NCBI GenBank assembly: GCA_021781425.1
Contig: JAJXWU010000123.1
Location: 1 to 32,405 of the forward strand
Origin: Pseudomonadota bacterium
Lineage (GTDB): Bacteria > Pseudomonadota > Gammaproteobacteria > Xanthomonadales > Rhodanobacteraceae
DNA: 32,405 nt
Reading direction: 5' to 3'
The position numbers and the translations under genes are program-made. The notes beneath the pieces were generated by a model. It saw only the letters and a program-made list of their open reading frames with translations. It was not told the origin of the DNA and ran no database searches. This document shows, one piece after another, positions 10,390 to 27,008 of this stretch (positions are counted from its first letter, which is position 1; every line of letters starts with the position of its first letter).

Positions 10390-11388
10390 ATGGCACAATC
10401 GCCTACTACCATCCTGCGCCCGCGCGGCCTGCATGTCGAACGTACCGGCGCCAACCGCGCCCGCGTCGTCGTCGAGCCGCTGGAACGTGGTTTCGGTCAT
10501 ACCCTGGGCAACGCGCTGCGGCGCGTGCTGCTGTCCTCGATTCCCGGCGCAGCGGTGATCGAAGTCGAGATCGACGGCGTGCTGCACGAGTACACGACCC
10601 TCGAAGGCCTGCAGGAGGACGTGATCGAAGTCCTGCTCAACTTCAAGGACATTGCGATCCGTCTGCACAATCTCGACGAAACCACCGTCACCTTGTCGAA
10701 AAAGGGCAGGGGCGTGGTCACGGCCGGCGACATCAAGACCGACCACAACGTCGAGATCCTCAATCCCGAGCACGTGCTCTGCCACCTGACCAAGGAAATC
10801 GCGCTGAACATGCGCATCAAGATTGCGCGTGGCGTCGGCTACGTGCCGGCCACGGCGCGCCGCCGTCCGGACGAGGAATCGCGTCCGATCGGCCGCCTGC
10901 AGCTGGATGCCTCGTTCTGCCCGGTGCGCCGCGTCGCTTACGAAGTCGACAGCGCCCGCGTCGAACAGCGTACCGACCTGGACAAACTGGTGCTGGACAT
11001 CGAGACCAACGGCACGATCGACGCCGAGGAAGCGGTGCGCAAGTCGGCCGAGACCCTGATGGATCAGCTGACCGTGTTCGGCGATTTCAGTCGTCGTGAG
11101 AGCACCGACGCCAAGGCCGAGAAATCCGGCGTGGATCCGGTGCTGCTGCGCCCGATCGACGATCTGGAACTGACCGTGCGTTCGGCCAACTGCCTGAAGG
11201 CCGAGAGCATCTATTACATCGGCGATCTGGTACAGCGTACCGAAGTCGAATTGCTGAAGACGCCGAACCTCGGCAAGAAGTCGCTCACCGAAATCAAGGA
11301 CGTGCTCGGTGCCCGCGGCCTGTCGCTCGGCACCAAGCTGGAAAACTGGCCGCCGGCGGGTCTGTCTTCCGGCATGCAGATGAACTGA
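10390..11388 (+). CDS. rpoA: RNA polymerase alpha subunit
   Basis: Alpha subunit of DNA-dependent RNA polymerase, which dimerises to start core assembly and contacts UP elements and activators. The 332-residue product has the N-terminal assembly domain with [30 protein letters not shown]-type core, and the C-terminal helix-hairpin-helix domain around [21 protein letters not shown] and [16 protein letters not shown]. The ATG is preceded by TTGGAG. Length is normal (E. coli 329). It is separated from rplQ by an unusually long spacer. Confidence 0.98.
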
Positions 11389-11582
11389 ACCTCTGAATAG
11401 GCTGCTGCGCTCGGCGACTCGTGTGCCGGCGCTGCTCGGAATCCTCATGTACCAGCGTGTACACTCCGGTTCCTGCGCTGCGGCGGCGCGCCATTTTGCC
11501 TTCGCTCGCGACGCTTCTTCAGGAGTTCAAAACGTACTACCGAACTAAGAGTTCACGTTTTCCGGAATCGTCCGTAAAACGA
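11389..11582. other. Non-coding spacer between rpoA and rplQ with a possible dispersed repeat
   Basis: In most bacteria rplQ follows rpoA within a few dozen bases; here 226 nt intervene. No protein of any known family is encoded. The part around 11430-11525 contains the inverted repeat TGTAC (11448-11452) and GTACA (11459-11463), flanked by the complementary ends GGAA and TTCC. It has the look of the short intergenic elements scattered through high-GC proteobacterial genomes, but that is from memory and not verified here. The 3' part (11525-11614) turns AT-rich. Confidence 0.4.
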
Positions 11583-11588
11583 TATAAT
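11583..11588 (+). promoter_or_regulatory. Possible -10 element for rplQ
   Basis: A perfect TATAAT lies 26 nt before the rplQ ATG in an AT-rich island. No good -35 is visible at 16-18 nt (TTCCGG or TTTCCG at best), so this could be a promoter using other contacts or chance. The distance would give a leader of roughly 20 nt carrying the GAAGGA ribosome-binding site at 11602-11607. Confidence 0.4.
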
Positions 11589-11614
11589 TATAAAGTTATA
11601 CGAAGGAATTACTT

Positions 11615-11998
11615 ATGCGTCACATGAAATCCGGCCGCAAGTTCAGCCGCACGTCGAGTCATCGTCAAGCGATGTTCAAGAACATGGCGGCTTCGCTGAT
11701 CAAGCATGAGCTGATCCGCACCACCCTGCCCAAGGCCAAGGAACTGCGCCGCGTTGCCGAGCCGCTGATCACGCTGGCCAAGGCCGACAGCGTCGCCAAC
11801 CGTCGCCTCGCCTTCGCGCGCCTGCGCGACAAAGTCGCGGTCGGCAAACTGTTCGTCGAACTCGGACCCCGCTATCGAGAGCGCAAGGGTGGTTATCTGC
11901 GCATCCTCAAATGCGGCATGCGCAACGGCGACGCCGCGCCGATGGCCTATGTCGAGCTGGTCGACCGGCCGCGCGCCGAAACCGAAGCGGCGGAGTAA
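11615..11998 (+). CDS. rplQ: 50S ribosomal protein L17
   Basis: Large-subunit protein L17, near the exit tunnel. The 127-residue product begins [29 protein letters not shown] and contains [21 protein letters not shown], the family signature, and [27 protein letters not shown] at 11602-11607 precedes the ATG. It is the last ribosomal gene of the cluster, followed by a hairpin plus T run. Because of the long spacer it may be expressed partly from its own promoter. Confidence 0.98.
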
Positions 11999-12021
11999 GC
12001 CGTTTCATCCGATTCCGCGAT

Positions 12022-12050
12022 GGCCTCGGTGGGCAACTGCCGGGGCTTTT
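12022..12050 (+). terminator. Probable intrinsic terminator of the alpha operon
   Basis: GCCTCGG at 12023-12029 pairs with CCGGGGC at 12040-12046 (seven pairs, one G-T), with a 10-nt loop, and is followed by TTTT. It lies 25 nt after the rplQ stop, where the ribosomal operon should end. The T run is short, so termination may be partial. Confidence 0.6.
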
Positions 12051-12120
12051 GCGTTTCTGGCGCCGGAACATCGGCGCGTGCGTAGTGTCTGATTCGCATC
12101 GTCGCAGCCAGGATACCCGC

Positions 12121-12651
12121 ATGTTCAATCCTTTCCGCTGGCCGTTCCGCGCGCAGTGCTTCGCCGGGTTTGGCGCTTGTATCGCGTTGCTCGCCTACGC
12201 CTATTTCGTGCAGTTCCAGCTCGGCATCGAACCGTGTCCGCTGTGCATTTTCCAACGCCTGGCATTCATTGCGATCGGGCTGGTCTTCCTCGCCGGCGCC
12301 ATTCAGGCGCCGCGCGCGTTCGGTCGGCGCGTCTATGCCTTGCTCGTGCTGCTCGGCGCGGCGGTTGGCGTCGGCATCGCTGCCTATCACATGTGGGTAC
12401 AGCATCAAGGCCCCGATCCCATGGCCGGCTGTACGCCGGGCTGGAACTACATGGTCGAGAATTACTCGTTGCGTTACGCCTGGTCCAAAACCCTGGAACA
12501 CGCCTTCACCGGCCACGCCGATTGCGCCGAGATAAACTGGACGTTTCTCGGCTTGGCCATGCCGTTCTGGACGCTCGTTAGCTACGTGCTGATCGGCGCG
12601 GGCGCGGCGTGGGCGGGGTTTCGCCGCCGCGATCAGGACGCTTCGCGATAA
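12121..12651 (+). CDS. dsbB: Disulfide bond formation protein B
   Basis: Inner-membrane quinone reductase that reoxidises periplasmic DsbA and passes electrons to ubiquinone or menaquinone. The 176-residue product has four membrane segments (about 13-33, 44-62, 70-90, 142-166). The first periplasmic loop holds the redox pair C39-P-L-C42, and the second holds C104 and C135, so all four essential cysteines are present. The length equals E. coli DsbB. A longer frame opens at 11911 inside rplQ, but family homology begins at this ATG. The gene stands alone; the 122-nt upstream gap includes the ribosomal terminator. Confidence 0.95.
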   Translation: MFNPFRWPFRAQCFAGFGACIALLAYAYFVQFQLGIEPCPLCIFQRLAFIAIGLVFLAGAIQAPRAFGRRVYALLVLLGAAVGVGIAAYHMWVQHQGPDPMAGCTPGWNYMVENYSLRYAWSKTLEHAFTGHADCAEINWTFLGLAMPFWTLVSYVLIGAGAAWAGFRRRDQDASR

Positions 12652-14751: not shown

Positions 14752-16809
14752 TCAATCCTCGTCCACCTTGGGTTTGTACCCTTCCGTCAATTGCTTTTGC
14801 ACCTGCGGCGGCACCGGATCGTAGTGGCTGAACTCGATCGCGTAGCGGCCCTGGCCGCCGGTCATGGCCTTCAGTTCGGTCTGGTAATCGGTCACTTCCG
14901 CGAGCGGCACCTGCGCTTTGATGACGATTTCGCCGCCGCGCAGCGAATCGGTGCCGCTGATGCGCGCGCGCTTGCCGGCGAGGCCTCCGGTGACATCGCC
15001 CATGTGCGCGTCGGGGACGAACACTTCCAGGTTCACGATCGGCTCGAGCACCTGTGGCCTGGCCTTGGCGATGGCCTCCAGGAACGCCTTCTTGCCGGCG
15101 CTGACGAAGGCGACCTCCTTGGAATCGACCGGATGGTACTTGCCGTCGTAGACGATCACGCGCACGTCCTGCATTTGGTAGCCGGCGACGGCGCCGTGTT
15201 CGAGTACCTGGCGCACGCCTTTTTCCACCGCCGGGATGAACTGGTTCGGGATCGTGCCGCCCTTGACCTCGTCGGCGAATTCGAAGCCCGCGCCGCGCGG
15301 CAGCGGCTCGATGCGCAGGTACACCTCGCCGAACTGACCGGCGCCGCCGGTCTGCTTCTTGTGGCGGTGATGGCCCTCGGCTTTCGTCGCCACGGTCTCG
15401 CGGTAGGCGATGCGTGGCGGGCGCGTCTTCACTTCCACGTCGTAGCGCTGCTTCATGCGTTCGAGCATCAGCTTCAAATGCAGATCCGACAGTCCGCGTA
15501 CCACCGACTCGTTCAGTTCCTTGTTGTGCTCGAAGCGGAAGCACGGGTCTTCCTCGCTGAGCTTGTGCAGCGAAGTGGCGAGCTTCTGTTCCTGGCCCTT
15601 GTGTGCGGGTTCGACCGCGAGGCCGAACATGGGATGCGGAAAATCCAGCGGCTTGAGGTGGATATGGTCCTCGTCGTGCGAATCATGCAGCACCGCGTCG
15701 AAATGGATTTCCTCGACCTTGGCCACGGCGGCGATGTCGCCGGGAATGGCGCTGTCGATCTCGATGTGCTCCTTGCCGCGCAGCTTGAACAGATGCCCGA
15801 CCTTGAAGGGTTTCTTGCCGTCGTCGACGAACAGTTGTGTATCCTTCTTCAGCGTGCCTTGATAGACGCGGAACACCGACAGCTTGCCGACGAAGGGGTC
15901 GTTGACGATCTTGAACACGTCGGCGATGACGTGCCGTTTCGGATCGGGCACCGCTTCGATCGGCGCCGCATTCGCGCCGGTGCCTTTGACGAATGGCGGC
16001 GGGTTGCCTTCCGCCGGATTCGGCAGCAAACGTTCGATCAGGTTCAACAGCTCCTTCACGCCGGCTCCGGTGCGCGCGGACACGAAGCAGATCGGCACGA
16101 GATGGCCTTCGCGCAGGCATTGCTCGAACGCGTCGTGCAGTTCCTGGCCGGAAAGGCCGGCTTCGCCGACATCGAGGAAATGATTCATCACGGTCTCGTT
16201 GATTTCGACGACCTGGTCGATGATGCGCTGGTGCGCTTCGGCGACCGAAGAAAAATCCGCGACGCCCCGATTCTGATCAAGATTGGGTTTGAAGAAGCAG
16301 TCGACCACGCTCTTGCCGTCCTGCGCCGGCAGGTCGATCGGCAGGCATTCGGGACCGAAGGTCTCGCGCAACTGGTCGACCAGGGCGCGACAGTTCCCGC
16401 CGTCCATCTTGTTCACGATCAACACGCGCGCCAATCCGCGCGCCTTGGCATGGTGCATCATGCGCTGGGTGCCGTATTCGATGCCATTGTGCGCGTTGAC
16501 GACGATGGCGCAGGTTTCCACGGCGGCGAGCGCCGACAGCGTCGGTCCGCGAAAATCCGCCGCTCCCGGCGTATCGATCAGGTTGATATGGCATTCGCCG
16601 TGGTCGATCGAGGCGATGGCCGTGCTCAGCGATTGCTTGCGCTCCCTTTCCATCGGGTCGTAGTCGGAAACGCTGGTACCGCGCTCGACCGATCCGGGAG
16701 CGCCGATCACGCCGCCCGCGTGCAACAGGGCTTCGAACAGCGTGGTCTTGCCCGCGGCGGAATGTCCGGCGAGCGCGATGTTTCGGATGCCTTGCGTGGT
16801 GTAGGCCAT
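14752..16809 (-). CDS. fusA2: Elongation factor G-like GTPase
   Basis: A translational GTPase related to EF-G but of the divergent FusA2 type; its role in translation is not settled in most bacteria. The 685-residue product has GHSAAGKT (15-22) as G1, DTPGAADF (79-86) as G3 and NKMD (133-136) as G4, then domain 2, and domain 4 with KKQTGGAGQFGEV near residue 480 and the C-terminal EFSHYDPVPPQVQ. Canonical EF-G has DTPGHVDF at G3, with the histidine that positions the attacking water; here it is alanine. The start at 16809 is preferred to 16842 because GGGAGA lies just upstream and homology starts there. The main fusA, which normally lies with tuf and rpsL, would be outside the window. Confidence 0.9.
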   Translation of the reverse strand: MAYTTQGIRNIALAGHSAAGKTTLFEALLHAGGVIGAPGSVERGTSVSDYDPMERERKQSLSTAIASIDHGECHINLIDTPGAADFRGPTLSALAAVETCAIVVNAHNGIEYGTQRMMHHAKARGLARVLIVNKMDGGNCRALVDQLRETFGPECLPIDLPAQDGKSVVDCFFKPNLDQNRGVADFSSVAEAHQRIIDQVVEINETVMNHFLDVGEAGLSGQELHDAFEQCLREGHLVPICFVSARTGAGVKELLNLIERLLPNPAEGNPPPFVKGTGANAAPIEAVPDPKRHVIADVFKIVNDPFVGKLSVFRVYQGTLKKDTQLFVDDGKKPFKVGHLFKLRGKEHIEIDSAIPGDIAAVAKVEEIHFDAVLHDSHDEDHIHLKPLDFPHPMFGLAVEPAHKGQEQKLATSLHKLSEEDPCFRFEHNKELNESVVRGLSDLHLKLMLERMKQRYDVEVKTRPPRIAYRETVATKAEGHHRHKKQTGGAGQFGEVYLRIEPLPRGAGFEFADEVKGGTIPNQFIPAVEKGVRQVLEHGAVAGYQMQDVRVIVYDGKYHPVDSKEVAFVSAGKKAFLEAIAKARPQVLEPIVNLEVFVPDAHMGDVTGGLAGKRARISGTDSLRGGEIVIKAQVPLAEVTDYQTELKAMTGGQGRYAIEFSHYDPVPPQVQKQLTEGYKPKVDED

Positions 16810-17659: not shown

Positions 17660-19885
17660 TCAGAGCAACCGCAGCAACTCCGGCACCAGCGGCAGCTTGC
17701 GCACGCGCACCGTGGTGGCGGCGAATACGGCGTTAGCTAGCGCTGGCGCCGCGCTGGAGGCTATGGCCGTGGCAAAATCCACCGATTCGGTGCCGCCATC
17801 CACGGTATGCACTTCCACCGTCTGCGGTGCCTGGCGCATGCGCATCAGCGGATAGTCGTCGAAATTGCTTTGCTCGACACGTCCGTTCTTGAGCGTGATC
17901 GCCTGGTGCAGGGTTGCCGACAACGCGTCCAGCGTCGCCATGGTCGCCAGTGCCTCCCGATTCAACGGATTGAGCGTGCGTCCGGCGTCGATCGCACAAA
18001 CGGCGCGATGCACGATGAGGTCGTTACCTTGTACCGACACTTCGAATGCGTGCGCTGCATAGGCGCCATGGGACGCATGGCAGGCAATGCCCAGGCCGTG
18101 GCCGTTGACCGGCTTGTGCTGCCAGTCGATCTTGCCGGCGGCAATGCGCAACACGCCGGCAAGACGTCCGGTGTCGAAACCCGGACGCAAGAGCCGCGGC
18201 GCGCCGAGCATATCCATGCGCAAGCGGACGGGGTCCTGATGCGTGGCGAGTGCGATTTCATCCAGAAAACATTGCGTGGCGAATGCTTGGGCAGCCTGTC
18301 CGCCGCCGCGACCGTCGCCGCGAGGCAGGTCGCAGGCCACGGTATAAAAAGCAAGCGACAGGTTGGAGATGAGGCCGGCCGGAAAGGCGTCTTCGTCGAG
18401 CGAGCCGGCGAATACCGGCCGGCCCGCAAGGCGGCTGTCGCGCCAATTGCGCGGCACGGCAGCGATCCGATGCGACCAGCCGGTGAGTTTTTTCTTGCGG
18501 TCGATCGTCGCCGTGAGTTCGTGCACGCCGAACGGACGGTAGAAATCGTGTTGCAGGTCGTCGTCGCGTGTCCAGATCAGCTTGAGCGGCCGGCCGGCAT
18601 CCTGGGCCAAAAGCGCGGCTTCGGCGACGTAATCGTTGTGCAGGCGCCGGCCCATGTCGCCGCCCGCGCGCGGCAAGCGAATATCGATGGCTTCGCGTGG
18701 CACGCCGGTGATGGCGTGCAGCAGTTGCGAAGCTCCCGCCGGATCATGCAGACCGGCGATCAAGACGACCTTGTCGGGAGTCACCTCGATCGTGGCGTTG
18801 GGCGGCTCGAGCGTGGCGTGGGCCAGAAACGGCAGGCGGTAACGCGCCGAGATGGCCGTAGTACGCGGCGTTTTCCGGGCTTTTGCGAAATCGCCGTTGT
18901 TGCGCACCACGATGCCGGCTGTATCGCCGTCGAGCAACGCGTTCGCGGCCGCTTCCAGCGCGGCGCTGGACTCGCCCTTGTCGCTCGGCTTCCAGGTTAT
19001 TTTCAATTTGCCGCGCCCGTGCAGCGCGGCCCAGGTGTCGTCCGCCAGCACCGCGATGCCTGCCGCCAGCATGCCGTCGAAAGGTGCGTCGGGCTTCGGC
19101 CCGGGCAATGCGATCACACGACGCACCCCCGGTACCTGTCGCGCTTGTGCGTCGTCGAGCGATTCCAGAGTGCCGTCCGGATACGGACAGCGTGCGATCA
19201 CGGCGACGAGCGCATTGCCGAGATAACTGTCGATGCCGTATTCGGTGCGCCCGAGCACGACCTCGCGCGCATCCACGGTACGCATCGGCTTGCCGATGAT
19301 GCGAAATTGCGACGGATCCTTGAGGGTCGGCGGATTCGCCGGCGCATCCAGCGTCGCCGCGCTGGCGGCGAGCGCGCCGTAGGCGAGTTTGCGGCCGTCG
19401 GCGGCGATCACGAAGCCGGCTTCGGTGCGCAGCGTGGCGGCATCGAGACCCCATTTTTGCGCAGCCGCCTGCACCAGCAGCCAGCGCGCGATCGCGCCGG
19501 CTTGGCGCAACAGCGTCCATGCCGCCGGTCCGGTATCTCCGCCGGCACCCTGATCGCCGTAGCGGTCGCCGGAGCCGCTGTCGGTTTCGATATAGTTGTA
19601 GGACAACTGCTCGACGTGCACGCGATTCCAGTCGGCGTCGAGTTCTTCGGCGATTAGCATCGGCAGTTCGGTTTTCACGCCTTGTCCGACTTCGCAGCCG
19701 CGTGCCCCGATCACGACCCTGCCGTCGGCTTCGATGCTGACGAAATCGGTAAGCTGCTGCGCCGCGAAACGCGCACCCAGATAGGGCAATTCGCCCTGAG
19801 CCTGGACGCGCCAGCCGACCAGCAAGGCGCCGGCGGCGCTGGCGCCGGTAACCAGAAAACGGCGCCGCGAGGGATCGAATATCAC
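17660..19885 (-). CDS. Molybdopterin-binding large subunit, isoquinoline 1-oxidoreductase beta type, with altered active-site motif
   Basis: Catalytic subunit of a xanthine dehydrogenase-family hydroxylase (aldehyde or N-heterocycle oxidation), exported folded. The 741-residue product starts at GTG 19885 and has a twin-arginine signal (SRRRFLVTGASAAGALLVG, residues 6-24). IorB-type blocks follow: GCEVGQGVKTELPMLIAEELDADW, LPFLAHATLEPPNATIEV, LPRAGGDMGRRLHNDYVAEA and ATQCFLDEIA. Near the C-terminus, where the family has a VGEPG motif carrying the catalytic glutamate before APAxANA, this protein reads ATAIASSAAPALANA, with Thr at about residue 706. It may therefore be inactive or use different chemistry. 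The GTG overlaps the small-subunit stop by four bases. Confidence 0.85.
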   Translation of the reverse strand: MIFDPSRRRFLVTGASAAGALLVGWRVQAQGELPYLGARFAAQQLTDFVSIEADGRVVIGARGCEVGQGVKTELPMLIAEELDADWNRVHVEQLSYNYIETDSGSGDRYGDQGAGGDTGPAAWTLLRQAGAIARWLLVQAAAQKWGLDAATLRTEAGFVIAADGRKLAYGALAASAATLDAPANPPTLKDPSQFRIIGKPMRTVDAREVVLGRTEYGIDSYLGNALVAVIARCPYPDGTLESLDDAQARQVPGVRRVIALPGPKPDAPFDGMLAAGIAVLADDTWAALHGRGKLKITWKPSDKGESSAALEAAANALLDGDTAGIVVRNNGDFAKARKTPRTTAISARYRLPFLAHATLEPPNATIEVTPDKVVLIAGLHDPAGASQLLHAITGVPREAIDIRLPRAGGDMGRRLHNDYVAEAALLAQDAGRPLKLIWTRDDDLQHDFYRPFGVHELTATIDRKKKLTGWSHRIAAVPRNWRDSRLAGRPVFAGSLDEDAFPAGLISNLSLAFYTVACDLPRGDGRGGGQAAQAFATQCFLDEIALATHQDPVRLRMDMLGAPRLLRPGFDTGRLAGVLRIAAGKIDWQHKPVNGHGLGIACHASHGAYAAHAFEVSVQGNDLIVHRAVCAIDAGRTLNPLNREALATMATLDALSATLHQAITLKNGRVEQSNFDDYPLMRMRQAPQTVEVHTVDGGTESVDFATAIASSAAPALANAVFAATTVRVRKLPLVPELLRLL

Positions 19886-20418
19886 TTGCCGCCCTCGTTC
19901 GGCGCGGTTGCCGCGCGCACGATGGCGGAGCGGATGCGCGGATACAAACCGCAGCGGCACAAATTTGGAATCGAATCGATATCCGCAGCGTCCGGATGCG
20001 GCTTGCGCTTGAGCAATGCGGCAGCGGCCATGATCAGTCCGGGTTGGCAGTAGCCGCAGCCGATCGCATCCTCGGCGATCCAGGATTCCTGCAAGGGATG
20101 CAACGCATCCTTGCCGGCCAGCCCTTCGATGGTGACGATATCGCGGTGCGTCAGCGACTTCACCGGCAGTATGCAAGCGTGCTGGGCTTTGCCGTCGACG
20201 AGCACGGTGCATGCACCGCATTCGCCGGTACCACAGCCGAACTTGGTGCCGGTCAGGCGCAGCACATCGCGCAGGTACCACAAGAGCGGCATGTCCGGAT
20301 CGCCGTTGTGGAAGAACTCCTTGCCGTTGATGCGCAGAGGCAGCGTCTTTTCGTGGGCGCTGGCGGCGACCGGCGGAACCGGTTCGGGTTTGGTGCGGCG
20401 GAAAGGATTGTCGGGCAT
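19882..20418 (-). CDS. Two-[2Fe-2S] ferredoxin-like small subunit of the molybdenum hydroxylase
   Basis: Electron-transfer subunit of the isoquinoline 1-oxidoreductase/CoxS type, partner of the following gene. The 178-residue product has the plant-type cluster ligands C62, C67, C70 and C82 (FGCGTGECGACTVL then HAC), and the second-domain ligands C121, C124, C154 and C156 (GCGYCQPG and CRCG). All eight cysteines are present. The preferred start is ATG 20418; the frame is open to 20487, but the extra residues do not resemble the family. There is no strong Shine-Dalgarno at either start. It carries no signal, consistent with co-export on the partner's Tat signal. Confidence 0.9.
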   Translation of the reverse strand: MPDNPFRRTKPEPVPPVAASAHEKTLPLRINGKEFFHNGDPDMPLLWYLRDVLRLTGTKFGCGTGECGACTVLVDGKAQHACILPVKSLTHRDIVTIEGLAGKDALHPLQESWIAEDAIGCGYCQPGLIMAAAALLKRKPHPDAADIDSIPNLCRCGLYPRIRSAIVRAATAPNEGGK

Positions 20419-20536
20419 GGTGGAATCGCGTGCGTGAGGCGCTATTTTGCACCAAGATGCCACGGAAATTTCCTGTGCCGCGTTCATGACACGCTATACG
20501 GCGTCGCTTTCGCTCGGTCGCCGCCGCCGAATTGTC

Positions 20537-20568
20537 ACAAGGATGCCAGCGCCTCTCCTTGTTTTTTT
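20537..20568 (+). terminator. Terminator-like hairpin in the lysAC leader
   Basis: ACAAGGA at 20537-20543 pairs with TCCTTGT at 20556-20562 (seven pairs, 12-nt loop), followed by a run of seven Ts (20562-20568). It lies before the lysAC start on the coding strand. A second ACAAGGA at 20576-20582 could pair with the same TCCTTGT, so two exclusive structures are possible. No lysine riboswitch core or lysine-rich leader peptide was recognised. Confidence 0.5.
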
Positions 20569-20614
20569 GCGCCGCACAAGGACAATGGCGGTTCCCTCGC
20601 CGCCCTGCCTTTCC

Positions 20615-23197
20615 ATGTCCGATCAACCCGCCGCTTCGTGGATCGCGCTCAAGTTTGGCGGCACCAGCGTGTCCACGCGCGCGCGCTGGGACAAGATCGC
20701 CGCGATCGCGCGCGCCTGGCGTGAGCGCGGCAAGCAGGTGCTGATCGTGGTATCGGCGCTGTCCGGCATCACCGACCAGCTCAAGGCCTTGACCGAGGCG
20801 CACGCCGATCCGCCGCGCCGCGCGATCCGCGACGCGATCATGGCGCGCCATGAGGCGATGTTCGCCGAGATGCAGCTTGCGGATCGCGCGCCCTTGCAAT
20901 ACTGGCTGGAACGTCTGGATGCGCTCGTCACGCACGCGCGCGCCGAAGCTGGCGGCTTGCCGTGGCAGGCCGAAGTGCTCGCGCTGGGCGAGCAATTGTC
21001 GAGCACGCTCGGCGTCGCCTACCTCAATCGCCTGAACCTTGCCGCGCAGTGGCTGGACGCACGCGAACATTTGCGTGCGCAGCCGCTCCCCAACCAGAAT
21101 GCATGGGGACGTTATCTTTCGGCGTCCGTGCCGGCTGCGCCCGATCCGGTTTTCGCACGGGCGCTGGCTGCGCGCGGCGGCCTGTTCGTCACGCAGGGTT
21201 TCATGGCCCGCAGCGAGCAGGGCGAGACCGTGATTCTCGGGCGTGGCGGCTCGGATACGTCAGCCAGTTATTTTGGTGCGTTGCTGAAAGCCGAAAAAGT
21301 GGAAATCTGGACGGACGTGGCGGGCATGTTCAGCGCCAATCCACGTCAGGTGCCGAACGCGCGTCTGTTGGCGCGGCTCGACTACGAAGAGGCGCAGGAA
21401 ATCGCCACCACCGGCGCCAAGGTATTGCATCCGCGTTGCATCAATCCCGTGCGCGAGGCGCGCGTGCCGCTCGCGATACGCGACACCAATTATCCCGACA
21501 TGCCCGGTACCGAGATTGGCGCGACCGTGGCCGATGCGGCACCGAGCGTCAAGGCGATCAGCTCGCGCGGCGGCATCACGCTGATCTCGATGGAATCGAT
21601 CGGCATGTGGCAGCAGGTCGGCTTTCTCGCCGACGTGTTCGAGCATTTCAAGCGCCACGGTCTGTCGATCGATCTGGTCGGCACCTCGGAGACGAACGTC
21701 ACCGTCTCGCTCGATCCAACCGAAAACCTGGTCAACTCCGATGTTCTGTCGGCGTTATGCGCAGACTTGGCCAAGGTCTGCCGCGTCAAGGTGATCGCGC
21801 CGTGCGCGGCGATCACGCTGGTCGGACGCGGCATGCGCTCGATGCTGCACAAGCTCTCCGGCGTGCTCGCCGAATTCGGCGCGTTGCGCGTGCACCTGAT
21901 CTCGCAGTCGTCGAACAATCTCTACCTCACATTCGTGGTGGACGAGGTGATCGCCGCGGATCTGGTGCCGAGCCTGCACGAAATGCTGATTCGCGCCGAA
22001 GCCATGCGCGTGGAAGACGTCGACGTATTCGGTCCGAGCTGGCGGGATTTGTATAAAAAGGAACAATCTGCGCGAGCTGAGCCATGGTGGATCGCACGCC
22101 GCGCCGAACTGCTCGCGCTGGCCGAGCGCCATACGCCGTGTTACGTCTACGACCTCGCCACGCTGCGTGCGCGGGTGCAAGCGTTGCGCGCAGTCAATCC
22201 GGTTGATCGCTGGTTTTACGCGATCAAGGCGAACGCGCATCCGACTCTGTTGAAGGAAATTGCCGCGCAGAATTTCGGTCTGGAATGCGTTTCGCCCGGC
22301 GAACTCGAACGCGCCGCGCAGGTCGCGCCGGACGCCACTCGGCTGTTCACGCCGAACTTCGCGCCGCGCGCCGAGTACGCCGCGGCGCTGACCAGCGGCG
22401 TACCAGTCACGCTCGACAATCTGCATCCGCTCGAATGCTGGGGCAAGGATTTTTCCGGCCACGAAATTTTCCTGCGCCTGGATCTTGGCGCGGGACGCGG
22501 CCATCACGACAAGGTCAAGACCGGCGGGGCGCAATCCAAGTTCGGCCTTGCGCTGGATGAGTTGGACGAATTCCGCGGTCTTGCGGAGCGCCACGGCGTG
22601 CGTATCGCCGGCCTGCACGCGCACCTGGGTTCCGGCATTCTGGATGCTGCGCACTGGCGCGATGTCTACGTGCAGCTCGCCAGCATCGCCGAGAAAATCG
22701 GCAGTGTGCGCGTGCTCAATATCGGCGGTGGACTCGGTGTGCCCGCGCGCGGCGACGAGATGCCACTGGATCTGGCCGCACTCGGCACAGCCCTGGCGGA
22801 AGTCAAGAGCGCATACCCGCAGTTCGAATTGTGGGCCGAGCCGGGACGCTACCTGGTCGCCGACGCGGGTGTGATCCTCGCGCACGTGACCCAGACCAAG
22901 CGCAAGGGCGAGGTGCGTTATGTCGGCTGCGATGCGGGCATGAACTCGCTGATCCGCCCGGCGTTGTACGAGGCGTATCACGAAATCGTCAACCTCACGC
23001 GCCTCGAGATTCCCGCGATGGAACTGGTCCAGGTGGTCGGCCCGATTTGCGAATCCGGCGATGTGCTCGGCAGCAATCGCCGCCTGCCGCAGACGCGCGA
23101 AGGCGACGTTCTGCTGATCGCGCAGGCCGGTGCTTACGGCGCGGTGATGGCATCGCATTACAACCTGCGTGAACCGGCGTGTGAGGTGATTTTGTGA
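20615..23197 (+). CDS. lysAC: Bifunctional aspartate kinase / diaminopimelate decarboxylase
   Basis: Fusion of the first and last steps of lysine synthesis: ATP-dependent phosphorylation of aspartate, and PLP-dependent decarboxylation of meso-DAP to L-lysine. The 860-residue product has the aspartokinase domain (ALKFGGTSVST, 11-21; LGRGGSDTSA near 210; ACT domains from about 310, with ISSRGGITLISMESIGM) and the LysA domain from about 490, with PLP lysine K538 in FYAIKANAH, GLHAHLGSG, NIGGGLGVP, EPGRYLVADAG and CESGDVLG. The fusion is known in Xanthomonas relatives. ATG 20615 fits homology but lacks a Shine-Dalgarno; an in-frame ATG at 20585 has AAGGA only two bases upstream. The frame stays open to 20447. 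The TGA overlaps the murL GTG. Confidence 0.95.
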   Translation: MSDQPAASWIALKFGGTSVSTRARWDKIAAIARAWRERGKQVLIVVSALSGITDQLKALTEAHADPPRRAIRDAIMARHEAMFAEMQLADRAPLQYWLERLDALVTHARAEAGGLPWQAEVLALGEQLSSTLGVAYLNRLNLAAQWLDAREHLRAQPLPNQNAWGRYLSASVPAAPDPVFARALAARGGLFVTQGFMARSEQGETVILGRGGSDTSASYFGALLKAEKVEIWTDVAGMFSANPRQVPNARLLARLDYEEAQEIATTGAKVLHPRCINPVREARVPLAIRDTNYPDMPGTEIGATVADAAPSVKAISSRGGITLISMESIGMWQQVGFLADVFEHFKRHGLSIDLVGTSETNVTVSLDPTENLVNSDVLSALCADLAKVCRVKVIAPCAAITLVGRGMRSMLHKLSGVLAEFGALRVHLISQSSNNLYLTFVVDEVIAADLVPSLHEMLIRAEAMRVEDVDVFGPSWRDLYKKEQSARAEPWWIARRAELLALAERHTPCYVYDLATLRARVQALRAVNPVDRWFYAIKANAHPTLLKEIAAQNFGLECVSPGELERAAQVAPDATRLFTPNFAPRAEYAAALTSGVPVTLDNLHPLECWGKDFSGHEIFLRLDLGAGRGHHDKVKTGGAQSKFGLALDELDEFRGLAERHGVRIAGLHAHLGSGILDAAHWRDVYVQLASIAEKIGSVRVLNIGGGLGVPARGDEMPLDLAALGTALAEVKSAYPQFELWAEPGRYLVADAGVILAHVTQTKRKGEVRYVGCDAGMNSLIRPALYEAYHEIVNLTRLEIPAMELVQVVGPICESGDVLGSNRRLPQTREGDVLLIAQAGAYGAVMASHYNLREPACEVIL

Positions 23198-24540
23198 GCG
23201 CCTTGCTTGATCCGCGTCAGGCCCAAGCGTTCCGTTTCGTGCGTTGCACGTATCGTGACGGCGAAGCACAACTCGCCTACGCCTTCAATGACGGCCCGGC
23301 GCTGATCGAGCGCATCGGTTTTCCGGATGCGCCGCCGCTGCCGCCCGAGCGGGAATCCGCATTCGCCGCCGCGTTGCGCTTGCTGCATCTGATTGCCGGG
23401 GTCAGTTACTACAAGGCCGGTGTGCCGAAGGCAATTGTGGTCGAAGGCGAGCCGTTGGATGCCGGCTTGGCGCAATTCATGGACACCGTGTACACGCATG
23501 GATTGGCGGAGTTCGCGTATCACAACAAGGTGGATTTGCGCGGGCGGATTCGCTTCCCGCGCCATGGCAAGGCAATGCGGCCGCCGGCGGCACATGCGAA
23601 CTTGCAGCGCCGCACCTTGGTCGCTCTCGGCGGCGGCAAGGACTCGCTGGTCAGTGTGGAGATGCTGAAAGGCGTCGACGAGCCGATGACCGCTGTGTGG
23701 GTCGGCGATTCGGCCTTGATCGCGGCGTGCGCGCAGCGCACGGGTCTGCCCACGCTGAATCTCAGCCGCCGTTTAGCGCCGGAGCTGTTCGAGTACAACC
23801 GGCTCGGCGCTTACAACGGTCACATACCGGTTACGGCGATCAACTCGGCGATCCTGATTTGCGCGGCGATCCTGTACGACTTCGATGCGATCGCATTTTC
23901 CAACGAGGCGTCGGCATCGGCCGCGACACTCGAATACGACGGCCAGCCGGTCAACCACCAGTGGAGCAAGAGCCTGGATTTCGAGCGCGACGTGCGCGAG
24001 TATACAAAATCGCATACGGCGGCGGATCTGGATTATTTCTCGCTGCTGCGGCCCTGGTCGGAACTGGCGGTCACGCGCGCGTTCGCGCGCAGCACACGCT
24101 ACGACGATGTCTTTTCGAGCTGCAACCGCAACTTCCGTATCCGTGGTGAGAGGCCCGCCGATCGCTGGTGCGGACAGTGCCCCAAGTGTCACTTCGTGTT
24201 TCTGGCCTTGGCACCGTTTGTGGCCAAGCCGCGCCTACTCGCGATTTTCGGCCGGAATCTGCTGGACGATGCAGCGCTCGCGTCCGGCTTTGACGCGCTG
24301 CTCGAATACCGCGAGCACAAACCGTTCGAATGTGTGGGCGAGGGCCGCGAATCGCGCGCGGCGATGCGCGCGTTGTCGCTTCGCCCGGAGTGGCGCGAGG
24401 ACGCGCTGGTCGCGCGTTTCGCCGAGGAAATCGCGCCGCAACTCGGTGCCGGCGAGTTCGCGCTGGCGCCGCTGTTGACGCCGTCGGCCACACATTTTTT
24501 GCCGTTCCGACTGCAAGGCTTGCTGCATGCGCATGCATGA
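23194..24540 (+). CDS. murL: UDP-MurNAc-L-Ala-L-Glu epimerase
   Basis: Peptidoglycan precursor enzyme that turns the terminal L-glutamate of UDP-MurNAc-L-Ala-L-Glu into D-glutamate, using ATP and Mg2+ in the Xanthomonas enzyme; it works with MurD2 and replaces glutamate racemase plus classical MurD. The 448-residue product has a PP-loop-like ATP motif ALGGGKDS (K149) followed by a VWVGDSALIAACA region. It also has C310 in SCNRNFR with the cluster C326-x2-C329-x2-C332 (WCGQCPKCHFVFLALAPF), which could bind metal. The start is GTG, overlapping the lysAC stop by four bases (GTGA). It overlaps murD2 by 14 nt. The assignment rests on recognising the family and on the adjacent MurD2. Confidence 0.88.
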   Translation: MSALLDPRQAQAFRFVRCTYRDGEAQLAYAFNDGPALIERIGFPDAPPLPPERESAFAAALRLLHLIAGVSYYKAGVPKAIVVEGEPLDAGLAQFMDTVYTHGLAEFAYHNKVDLRGRIRFPRHGKAMRPPAAHANLQRRTLVALGGGKDSLVSVEMLKGVDEPMTAVWVGDSALIAACAQRTGLPTLNLSRRLAPELFEYNRLGAYNGHIPVTAINSAILICAAILYDFDAIAFSNEASASAATLEYDGQPVNHQWSKSLDFERDVREYTKSHTAADLDYFSLLRPWSELAVTRAFARSTRYDDVFSSCNRNFRIRGERPADRWCGQCPKCHFVFLALAPFVAKPRLLAIFGRNLLDDAALASGFDALLEYREHKPFECVGEGRESRAAMRALSLRPEWREDALVARFAEEIAPQLGAGEFALAPLLTPSATHFLPFRLQGLLHAHA

Positions 24541-25897
24541 TCTTGGCGACGCGCGCGTCGCAGTCTGGGGTTATGGCCGCGAGGGCAGGGCGGCGCTGGC
24601 GGCGTTGCGGCGACGGTTTCCGCGCAAGGAATTGACGCTGCTGTGTCCGGCCGACGAGAGGGCGCATGTGGCCGATGACGCACACCTGAATGTCATCACC
24701 GAAACGGTCGCTGCACGGACGTTGAAAACCTTCGACGTCATCGTCAAATCTCCCGGCATCAGTGCGTACATGCCGCCGATTTCCGAAGCCGTCGCGGCGG
24801 GCGTGAAATTCACCTCGGGCACCGCACTGTGGTTCGCGGAAAATCCCGCCGCGCGTGCCAGGTATGGAATCGTTGGCGTGACCGGTACCAAGGGCAAGAG
24901 CACGACCAGCGCGATGATCGCGCATAGCGCGCGCGCGCTCGGGATTCGCACGGCGCTGGCCGGCAATATCGGCATGCCCTTGCTGGATCTGGATGGACAG
25001 CAGGCCGAGTTGTGGGTGGTCGAACTGTCGAGTTTCCAGACTGGCGAGGCCGGGCCGCTCGAGGTCGGCGTGATCACGAACCTGTACGAGGAACACCTCG
25101 ACTGGCACGGCACCCGCGAGCGTTACGCGGCCGACAAACTCAAGCTCACCGATGCCGCGCGCACGCTGATCGTGAACGCCGAACAGCCCGAATTGCTCGC
25201 ACGCACTGCGGCGCATGCGCGTCGGTTGTTGTTCGGCGATACCGCCGGCTGGCATGCCCGCGACGGCGCGATCGGGCGTGGCGACATGCGCTTGTTGCCG
25301 ATGACGGAGTTGTCTGTCCCCGGCGAGCACAATGCGCGAAATGTCTGCGCCGCGCTTGCCGCGCTGGAAGCGGTGGGCCTGGATGCCATCGCTGCCCTGC
25401 CACATCTGTCGAGCTTCAAGCCGCTTCCGCATAGATTGCAATTGCTCGGTATGCGCGCGCGCGTCGAATTCACCAACGACAGCATCGCCACTACGCCTTA
25501 CGCGACGGTGGAGGCGCTGCGCAGTCTCGACCATCGTGCCGTGACCGTCATCGTCGGTGGATTCGATCGCGGCGTGGATTGGAGCGGATTCGTCGCGCAC
25601 GTCGCTGAGCATCCGCCGCATACAATCGTCGCGACGGGTGCGAACGGTGGGCGCATCGCCGAAGCGCTTTGCGCTTTGGAATCCCCGCATTTCGATCTGA
25701 TGTCGGCGCCAACGCTGGAACGGGCAGTGAGCGTGGCGCAGGCCTGCACGCCTGCCGGCGGGGTCGTTTTGTTTTCGCCCGGTGCGCCCAGCTTCGATCA
25801 GTTCAGGGATTACGCCGAGCGCGGTCGCGAATTCGCGCGGTTGGCGGGTTTCGATCCCGCATCGATCACGAACATCGAAGGGCTCGGTATCGCATGA
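24527..25897 (+). CDS. murD2: UDP-MurNAc-L-Ala--L-glutamate ligase
   Basis: Mur ligase family enzyme that, in Xanthomonas, adds L-glutamate to UDP-MurNAc-L-Ala using ATP; MurL then epimerises the product. The 456-residue product has an N-terminal UDP-binding domain, the P-loop GVTGTKGKSTT (117-127), GNIGMPL, VVELSSFQT, ITNLYEEHLDWHGT, GEHNARNVCAALAAL and FTNDSIATTP, in the order of MurD proteins. Start candidates are 24527 and 24533; AAGG at 24515-24518 favours the first. It overlaps murL and the cytochrome b561 gene (ATGA). The L-Glu rather than D-Glu assignment depends on the neighbouring murL, since it cannot be read from motifs alone. Confidence 0.88.
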   Translation: MRMHDLGDARVAVWGYGREGRAALAALRRRFPRKELTLLCPADERAHVADDAHLNVITETVAARTLKTFDVIVKSPGISAYMPPISEAVAAGVKFTSGTALWFAENPAARARYGIVGVTGTKGKSTTSAMIAHSARALGIRTALAGNIGMPLLDLDGQQAELWVVELSSFQTGEAGPLEVGVITNLYEEHLDWHGTRERYAADKLKLTDAARTLIVNAEQPELLARTAAHARRLLFGDTAGWHARDGAIGRGDMRLLPMTELSVPGEHNARNVCAALAALEAVGLDAIAALPHLSSFKPLPHRLQLLGMRARVEFTNDSIATTPYATVEALRSLDHRAVTVIVGGFDRGVDWSGFVAHVAEHPPHTIVATGANGGRIAEALCALESPHFDLMSAPTLERAVSVAQACTPAGGVVLFSPGAPSFDQFRDYAERGREFARLAGFDPASITNIEGLGIA

Positions 25898-26562
25898 GTA
25901 CACCAATGCAAACGCAGCGAGTCTGGGACTTGCCCACGCGCGTGTTCCACGGGGCGCTGGCTCTGCTGATCGCGCTGCAATACGCGACCGGCGAATTCGG
26001 CCTGCTCGGCATGCGCTGGCACTTCCGGTTCGGCTACGCCACGCTCGCCCTTATCGGATTTCGCGTGTTGTGGGGATTTTTTGGCTCGCAGACCAGCCGC
26101 TTCCGCGACTTCGTGCGTGGCCCGCGCACGGTGCTCCGTTACCTGCGTGCGCAGATGTCCACAAATCCACAACGCAGCATCGGCCACAATCCGCTGGGTG
26201 GCTGGTCGGTGCTTGCGCTGCTGACCAGTGTCGCGGTGCAGGCGGTCAGCGGTCTGTTCGCCAGCGACGGGATTGATACGGATGGCCCATTCGCGGCGCA
26301 TGTTTCCGATTCCACCGTCAAGCTGATGACGCGCGTGCATCACTGGAACGAAAACCTGTTGTTGATCCTGATCGGCCTGCACATCGTCGCAGTGCTGCTG
26401 TACCTGCTGATCGAACACGACAATCTGATCGCTCCGATGATTACCGGCGTAAAGCGCGTGATGCCGACTCGAGAACTGCGCTTTGCAAACATCTGGCTGG
26501 CGATTGCGCTGTTCGTGCTGTGCGCGGCACTGGTGGCCACACTGGTCGGGCTTGCCGTCTAA
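25894..26562 (+). CDS. Cytochrome b561 family membrane protein
   Basis: Di-heme cytochrome b of the inner membrane, thought to pass electrons between quinol and periplasmic partners. The 222-residue product has about five membrane segments (14-33, 46-63, 103-122, 153-172, 199-220) and histidines suited to two b hemes: H19 in RVFHGALAL, H43 in RWHFRFGYA, H149/H150 in VHHWNEN and H163 in GLHIVAV. The ATG overlaps the murD2 stop (ATGA), so it rides on the lysAC-murL-murD2 transcript. Its stop overlaps the convergent cytochrome c' gene by four bases; cytochrome c' genes are often next to this type of cytochrome b. The frame is open upstream from 25669 inside murD2, but that part is a shadow. Confidence 0.9.
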   Translation: MSTPMQTQRVWDLPTRVFHGALALLIALQYATGEFGLLGMRWHFRFGYATLALIGFRVLWGFFGSQTSRFRDFVRGPRTVLRYLRAQMSTNPQRSIGHNPLGGWSVLALLTSVAVQAVSGLFASDGIDTDGPFAAHVSDSTVKLMTRVHHWNENLLLILIGLHIVAVLLYLLIEHDNLIAPMITGVKRVMPTRELRFANIWLAIALFVLCAALVATLVGLAV

Positions 26563-27008
26563 TCCGCTTTGTACTTTTCGTGGCAGGCCTTGCAGGCTTC
26601 GGCGGTTTTCTTGAATTGATCCCGCATGGCCGCTTCGTCGCTCGCATGAGCGACGTCGCTCAAGGCCTTGCTCTGCGTGACGAAGTCGTCGTACTTGGAT
26701 TTGAAATCATCGAAGTTCGTCCATATGCCGGGTTTGGCATCGGTTGTCGCGCCCTTGTCCGAGCCTTTGGCGAAGCCTTCCAGCACTTGCGGCACCAGGC
26801 CCGCGATGCGGTCGGCGCGCAGAGCGAACTGCTGCGCATCCCACGCCGTCTTGCCCTTGACCATCGCGCCGAGCGTGCCGAAGTTCCAGCCGATCATGGT
26901 CATCGCCGCCTGCCGGTAATGAATGACCTGCTCGGGCTTGTGCTGCGCCGCGGCGGGCAAGGCAATGCCGGCCGCAGCGATGGCAATGGCGATAATGGCT
27001 GGTTTCAT
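26559..27008 (-). CDS. Cytochrome c' (periplasmic)
   Basis: Periplasmic monoheme c-type cytochrome of the four-helix-bundle c' family, linked in other bacteria to nitric oxide binding and protection. The 149-residue product has a signal peptide (MKPAIIAIAIAAAGIALPAAAQ, cleavage after about 21), the mature chain with RQAAMTMIGWNFGTLGAM, and the C-terminal heme site C139-K-A-C142-H143. The open distal pocket typical of c' cannot be judged from motifs. GGAG lies 6 nt upstream of the ATG. Its 3' end overlaps the cytochrome b561 gene by 4 nt; the upstream region is shared with the divergent hydrolase gene. Confidence 0.93.
   Translation of the reverse strand: MKPAIIAIAIAAAGIALPAAAQHKPEQVIHYRQAAMTMIGWNFGTLGAMVKGKTAWDAQQFALRADRIAGLVPQVLEGFAKGSDKGATTDAKPGIWTNFDDFKSKYDDFVTQSKALSDVAHASDEAAMRDQFKKTAEACKACHEKYKAD

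Follow-up and report, generated by a model that had tools for sequence, protein, structure and literature searches.

A lysAC-murL-murD2 gene set as a probable operon for peptidoglycan stem residues, with MurL as a predicted QueC-like ATPase

Why should a gene of lysine biosynthesis stand directly in front of two genes that place glutamate into the cell wall? This question is raised by the window analysed here, a stretch of 32,405 nucleotides (nt) from a bacterium of the Rhodanobacteraceae (order Xanthomonadales; contig JAJXWU010000123.1 of assembly GCA_021781425.1, C44 in our numbering), in which lysAC, murL and murD2 follow one another on the forward strand. The underlying metagenome-assembled genome (MAG) comprises 2.65 Mb on 265 contigs and is 90.35% complete and 5.7% contaminated. 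We consider it probable that the three genes form one operon for the second and third residues of the peptidoglycan stem, in which MurL acts as an adenylating PP-loop ATPase. What MurD2 and MurL catalyse in Xanthomonas, the need for ATP with release of AMP, and the hypothesis of an adenylate are taken from the literature (PMC8788868). MurL would adenylate the alpha-carboxylate of the newly added Glu with ATP, releasing AMP, the alpha-carbon would be inverted on the enzyme, and the product would leave in the D-Glu form; as MurL would supply this form, no MurI would be needed. The aspartokinase (AK) half of LysAC would open the pathway to meso-diaminopimelate (DAP), which MurE would add next and which would also lead to lysine via the decarboxylase half. 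Co-transcribed in this way, the genes would serve the joint production of the D-Glu nucleotide and DAP.

Gene order, fusions and overlaps

LysAC combines AK and diaminopimelate decarboxylase (DAPDC) in one chain, with 1237.6 bits over residues 5-860 against the bifunctional AK/DAPDC equivalog NF006515 (cut-off 802), a match to TIGR01048 on residues 497-859, and the domains PF00696, PF22468 (ACT), PF02784 and PF00278. The MurL and MurD2 sequences also exceeded their family cut-offs (NF041275 equivalog, 744.6 bits, cut-off 700; TIGR01087 for MurD, 324.8 bits, cut-off 211.95). Re-reading of the open reading frames (ORFs) confirmed the overlaps of 4 nt between lysAC and murL and of 14 nt between murL and murD2 that a preliminary description of this DNA had reported; the overlap of murD2 with the next gene, also mentioned there, is 4 nt. 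The lysAC-murL overlap is a GTGA shared by the stop of the one and the start of the other, and the -4 and -14 overlaps are identical in both same-genus genomes read, G053 (L013) and G269 (L014). Because the gene order also recurs across the order, the arrangement is more than chance. An Rfam scan of the whole window gave no lysine riboswitch or other leader at the gathering threshold. In positions 20400-26700, a sigma-70 scan returned 0 promoters (shuffles, 1.2) and a terminator scan three terminator-like sites, fewer than in shuffles (6.6).

The preliminary description had tied the two wall genes to the DAP/lysine pathway, and a comparison of gene order among relatives showed this tie to be real and deep. 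We inspected 80 MurL neighbourhoods, hand-picked at about one per genus, and took as upstream any gene on the same strand within 1.2 kb of murL. LysAC stood upstream in 62 of them (counting L063, where only the decarboxylase part is present at a contig end), an AK without decarboxylase in seven and neither in 11; the genomes of these 11 encode a full fused LysAC elsewhere in ten cases and a fragment in one (G163). All seven AK-only loci belong to a single family, f8, of which nine loci were included. Their AK genes may have come from LysAC through loss of the decarboxylase or may predate the fusion: they lie inside the LysAC tree, and a tree that keeps LysAC together was not rejected (approximately unbiased test, p-AU 0.182). 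Four of the AK-only genomes also carry a full LysAC elsewhere (G027, G056, G082, G171); in G097, G137 and G142 none was detected. Directly after murL, murD2 was present in 74 of 80 loci, the six misses being due to a contig end (L062, L079, L081) or to a murD2 elsewhere (L064, L066, L067, family f12). In these 74 loci murL and murD2 overlap 59 times (25 by 20 nt, 19 by 14 nt), share one frame twice and lie 1-377 nt apart 13 times.

In some relatives neighbouring genes of the set are fused. In a survey of 26 genomes, chosen for long open frames of their own or of congeners or for other checks, MurL and MurD2 occupied one frame in two of five genomes of genus g53 (f8) and in six of nine of genus g30 (f9). 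AK and MurL shared one frame in all three surveyed genomes of genus g66 (f8). In the fourth g66 genome examined (G212) this frame is cut by a contig end, and G152 carries a second copy of MurL that is likewise fused to AK. Three of the AK-MurL proteins retain the AK motifs KFGGTS and GRGGSD, a short linker and the MurL motifs GGGKDS and WCxxCPKC; one of the three (L238), truncated at a contig end, lacks the C-terminus of MurL. The AK halves group with the AK-only proteins of f8 (Shimodaira-Hasegawa approximate likelihood ratio test, SH-aLRT, 100). In a structural model of the L230 protein (mean predicted local distance difference test score, pLDDT, 88.5; predicted template modelling score 0.58), both halves fold and their mutual placement is unsettled. 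Most fusion genomes are draft assemblies; as each fusion was seen in several genomes, single sequencing errors are unlikely. A 1668-amino-acid (aa) open frame of G126 was rejected as a LysAC-MurL fusion, since its LysAC stop overlaps murL and the AK match lies in another frame. The fusions suggest that the link within the gene set is meaningful, and they strengthen the association with the DAP/lysine pathway. Because AK, and not the decarboxylase, is fused to MurL, DAP supply is put before DAP drain, and the evidence favours a link of MurL to AK over a DAP-draining role.

The same gene order could be an ancestral one that was kept by inertia, without any functional link. MurL is nearly universal in the order (288 of 299 genomes, 167 above the cut-off), LysAC was found in this order only, and the adjacency was lost in 11 of 80 loci, all of which would fit such inertia. 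In a sample of 398 genomes of the phylum, MurL occurred in 20, of which ten lie outside the order, and fused LysAC (E up to 1e-200) in ten, all within it. We nevertheless regard inertia as rather unlikely. Other window neighbours were found less often near murL, with relatives in three to 25 of the 80 neighbourhoods (cytochrome b561 in nine, XDH-like small subunit in five, hydrolase in 25), counts that are limited for distant neighbours, which the fetched stretch may not cover. The overlap of the cytochrome b561 gene with murD2 is thus local. Inertia also accounts poorly for the in-frame AK-MurL fusions of one genus and for the AK half alone being kept beside murL in seven of nine f8 loci.

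Doubtful as well is the proposal that overlap-based coupling of LysAC with MurL and MurD2 balances DAP between lysine, via the decarboxylase, and the wall. It draws on the 4-nt overlap of the window, kept in both same-genus genomes, and on the close spacing of many LysAC/AK-murL pairs. Among 81 loci in the overlap test (window included; 44 close, 26 gapped, 11 without partner), 44 of 70 pairs (37 of 63 with LysAC, seven of seven with AK only) have the murL start at most 15 nt from the stop before it, 26 of them at exactly -4, with start codons chosen by script, so that single offsets are uncertain. The other 26 pairs, however, are separated by 35-1180 nt. Anti-Shine-Dalgarno pairing of the lysAC end had a mean of -9.35 where murL is distant (n=26), as strong as the mean of -8.37 for the Shine-Dalgarno (SD) site where the two are close (n=44; one-sided Mann-Whitney p 0.81); random sites inside murL paired more weakly (-4.25, n=350). 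The signal is therefore neither specific to adjacent pairs nor read as selected, and we rejected SD strength as a sign of coupling; the SD-like lysAC end is probably a by-product of the conserved C-terminus of LysA. The translational coupling put forward in the preliminary description is a possibility in the window itself, and the close spacing is kept in part of the relatives. The DAP balancing through the decarboxylase was not supported in the form proposed: this half is absent from the linked gene in seven of nine f8 loci, the fusions join AK to MurL, and the same-genus genome G053 has a stand-alone LysA (472.8 bits) as a second copy. The features of the locus are listed in Table 1.

Table 1. 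Features of the lysAC-murL-murD2 locus in the window and single-frame loci in relatives
Feature	Position or loci	Strand	Basis or distribution
lysAC (ATG 20615, TGA 23195-23197), bifunctional aspartokinase (residues ~1-460)/diaminopimelate decarboxylase (~497-860)	20615-23197	+	NF006515, TIGR01048, Pfam; ORF reading
Shine-Dalgarno-like GAGGTGAT within last lysAC codons, ahead of murL GTG	23183-23190	+	sequence; duplex energy -12.2
murL (start GTG), predicted QueC/QatC-like PP-loop ATPase (GGGKDS 146-151; C310, C326, C329, C332)	23194-24540	+	NF041275, alignment, model; ORF reading
murD2 (start ATG), predicted L-Glu-adding MurD-type ligase, E189 and R348	24527-25897	+	TIGR01087; alignment with E. 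coli MurD
cytochrome b561-type gene (start ATG), outside the conserved set	25894-26562	+	PF01292, 91.9 bits
MurL-MurD2 in a single frame	L225, L228, L237, L239, L240, L242, L243, L244		two families
AK-MurL in a single frame	L230, L234, L238, L246, L247		genus g66

Elsewhere in the window, molybdoenzyme-type genes named by eye lie divergent from lysAC (17660-20487, minus strand) and include a 2Fe-2S small-subunit-like ORF (19882-20487, minus strand). An EF-G-like gene (14752-16809, minus strand) has a relative in 14 of the 80 murL neighbourhoods, among them all nine f8 loci, hinting at old synteny.

The L-Glu route and its natural exceptions

In MurD2 of Xanthomonas oryzae, E197 and R358 set the use of L-Glu; their E. 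coli counterparts are D182 and K348, and an E197D/R358K double mutant switches to D-Glu (PMC8788868). Aligned with E. coli MurD, the window ligase has E189 and R348 at these positions. In the MurD2-type rows of the alignment (86 with that of the window, the best row being taken for each locus), Arg was present in all 86 and Glu in 82, and the remaining three of the 89 aligned MurD rows have Lys at the Arg position. A separate scan of named loci, with partly overlapping organisms, gave Arg in 79 of 80. The window MurD2 furthermore nests inside the clade of MurL-linked MurD2 sequences.

No match to TIGR00067 (murI) was found in the window's genome, a 90% complete MAG, by a search that did not extend to D-amino-acid aminotransferase and that, as a control, was positive in 10 of 14 known genomes. 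The genome has a single MurD above the cut-off. Its dcw cluster on contig C264, as read from the ORFs, is mraZ rsmH ftsL ftsI murE murF mraY ftsW murG murC ddl ftsQ ftsA ftsZ, with no gene, and hence no murD, between mraY (L007 10138-11253) and ftsW (11257-12456). The combination that the preliminary description had named as contrary to its identification of MurD2 and MurL, a classical dcw murD plus murI, was thus not seen in this MAG, and the identification itself was borne out by the family cut-offs and by E189/R348. A reading of the ligase as a plain D-Glu MurD encoded outside the dcw cluster, with another job for MurL, is very improbable: the TIGR01087 model cannot tell MurD from MurD2, but the E189/R348 pair, the lack of a detected murI, the position in the MurL-linked clade and a MurL above its equivalog cut-off all speak against it.

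The window locus is an ordinary member of the published MurD2/MurL pathway, with L-Glu activity predicted from its sequence. It resembles the Xanthomonas oryzae pair (XOO_1320/XOO_1319) in both families, the absence of murI and the specificity residues, and PMC8788868 already names Rhodanobacter, Dyella, Frateuria and others as carriers. MurL-MurD2 pairs were also seen in MAGs labelled Parcubacteria, Desulfobacterales, Acidobacteria, Sericytochromatia and Planctomycetota (L145, L146, L148, L153, L173, L185), taxa wider than those named in the review, with labels taken unchecked. In L159, L179, L206, L208 and L212 (Thiomargarita, Thiotrichales, Venteria) an E/R-type MurD occurs and MurL is not in the fetched stretch. 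Two further MurL matches (G091:C8 32312-33958 and G055:C235 708-2135) are split in two by an insert within one frame.

MurI exceeded its cut-off in four of 398 genomes of the order, two of which, G019 and G119, lack MurL. In G119, whose glutamate racemase scores 219.8 bits (cut-off 146.65), the MurD gene (L099 7039-8412) lies 51 to 87 nt behind lysAC, depending on the start codon, and no murL remnant was found at the locus (best tblastn E 0.22). The ligase falls inside the MurD2 clade, with MurD2 of G020, a genome of the same genus, as its sister (SH-aLRT 98), and keeps the Glu, with Lys at the specificity position that is Arg in G020; an identical sequence came from isolate OFTM154 (L140) in the named scan. 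A P-to-A exchange of G119 at the third published MurD2 position was not counted, as G020 and L091 share it. MurL loss, MurI presence and the R-to-K change are suggestive of a natural reversal toward the D-Glu type, and only suggestive because it is a single event. G019, the other well-assembled genome without MurL, has MurI and a D/K-type MurD in classical dcw order. A D/K-type MurD does not strictly exclude MurL, since G403 keeps MurL and has two MurDs, one of them of D/K type in dcw order.

In the other nine MurL-less genomes (65-99% complete), a search of seven gave no MurI above the cut-off and a search of eight no MurD match at 1e-40, and G132 has a MurD fragment of 137.8 bits; assembly gaps are a likely explanation. 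Across 80 genomes TIGR00067 had any match in 25 and one above the cut-off in three; the 22 weak matches (E up to 0.001), many in genomes with MurL, were not counted as MurI. Weak MurI-like frames of 301-365 aa were also noted in five f8 genomes (L104, L105, L106, L108, L112), four of them without detectable MurL.

Fold and proposed chemistry of MurL

MurL has been described as a protein without known conserved domains (PMC8788868, PMC5808125); it needs ATP and makes AMP, and an adenylate has been hypothesized in the literature. In an alignment of 53 MurL sequences, GGGKD is invariant at 146-150, S151 is present in at least 90%, and C310, C326, C329 and C332 are invariant. The model of the window MurL (pLDDT 95.8) superimposed on QatC over 317 residues (Z 18.8, root-mean-square deviation 3.8, 11% identity; MurL residues 10-408), on QueC over 201 residues (Z 13.5) and on Cap9 (Z 13.2); further PP-loop enzymes reached Z of about 8-10. 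Foldseek placed QueC (2pg3) first (E 7.6e-5), and the profile of the MurL alignment matched the PP-loop of TtuA (E 0.0034). The window MurL alone had no match up to E 1 in a sequence search of the PDB. PADLOC models were tried and rejected for MurL, with no match for the window and one weak match, to E2 (E 0.013), in one of 53 sequences.

The QueC reaction goes via adenylation. In two ATP-dependent steps, QueC converts a carboxylate to an amide and then to a nitrile (PMC13329287), and QatC has the SGGxDS stretch together with a zinc site at C334/C354/C357/C360 (PMC13279940). MurL and QatC agree in the position of the PP-loop and in the order of four cysteines that end alike in C-x2-C-x2-C; the spacing n in C(x)nCxxCxxC is 15 in MurL, 8 in QueC and 19 in QatC, and a metal in MurL is a prediction. 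The MurL reaction differs from those of QueC, QatC and Cap9 in its substrate, a UDP-N-acetylmuramoyl (UDP-MurNAc) dipeptide, and in being a net epimerisation. The PP-loop resemblance fits the ATP-to-AMP chemistry, and MurL is most likely a QueC/QatC-type PP-loop ATPase that would adenylate the Glu carboxylate in a QueC-like site. By the Pfam model it is not a QueC member; it has the QueC fold in the predicted structure and may work like QueC.

Assessment and implications

Several observations weigh against the operon reading and its ATPase part. Linkage is not required, since 11 of 80 loci have no AK or LysAC upstream and LysAC lies elsewhere in ten of these genomes; as LysAC was confined to the order in the phylum sample, shared ancestry also enters into its occurrence together with MurL. 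Completeness and contamination of the MAG limit the absence of murI and of a dcw murD, and G126 and G782 carry both MurL and MurI above the cut-off. The Foldseek template modelling score for QueC 2pg3 is only 0.32 by query length, and in contrast to the SGGxDS of QueC, QatC and Cap9, MurL has GGGKDS, its first Ser being Gly. The QueC model PF06508 gave no significant match, being hit by one of 53 MurL sequences (E 0.19) and not by that of the window.

A more far-reaching version is possible but tentative, in which AK and MurL of this order form a functional unit, as a complex or under shared control, that sets the ATP-driven D-Glu step together with DAP entry, through one AK-MurL protein in the case of one genus, while MurD2 and MurL would channel the L-Glu intermediate, in some species within one MurL-MurD2 protein, and MurL would be a QueC-fold ATPase turned epimerase.

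The fused LysAC has been described before. An ask-lysA fusion of the Xanthomonadaceae, for which faster feedback was proposed (PMC1885841) and which was noted in Xylella (PMC555942), is the same fused protein as in the window; the passages of both papers that treat it draw no link to murL or murD2. The term aspartokinase is absent from the reviews PMC8788868 and PMC5808125, and 'operon' and 'fusion' are absent from the former; where passages of the latter mention 'operon', it is for another peptide system only ('fusion' was not searched there). Searches of the open literature, which leaves out subscription papers including the 2017 discovery paper, listed these two reviews as the only papers on MurL/MurD2 as enzymes, no paper linking AK or LysAC to MurL/MurD2 and none tying QatC or QueC to MurL or to an epimerase. 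Within reach of these searches, novelty lies in the fused forms, in reading MurL as QueC-like and in the reversal, and the novel variants belong to relatives, not to the window locus.

Incorporation of D-Glu is an essential step of wall synthesis, and the MurD2/MurL route has been proposed as a narrow-spectrum drug target (PMC8788868). If true, the PP-loop fold would give the hitherto domainless MurL an active site open to testing and would explain its ATP-to-AMP use. With the AK-MurL and MurL-MurD2 fusions, proteins to probe coupling and channelling would already be at hand, and the relative without MurL would be an experiment of nature on the residue that decides between L- and D-Glu.

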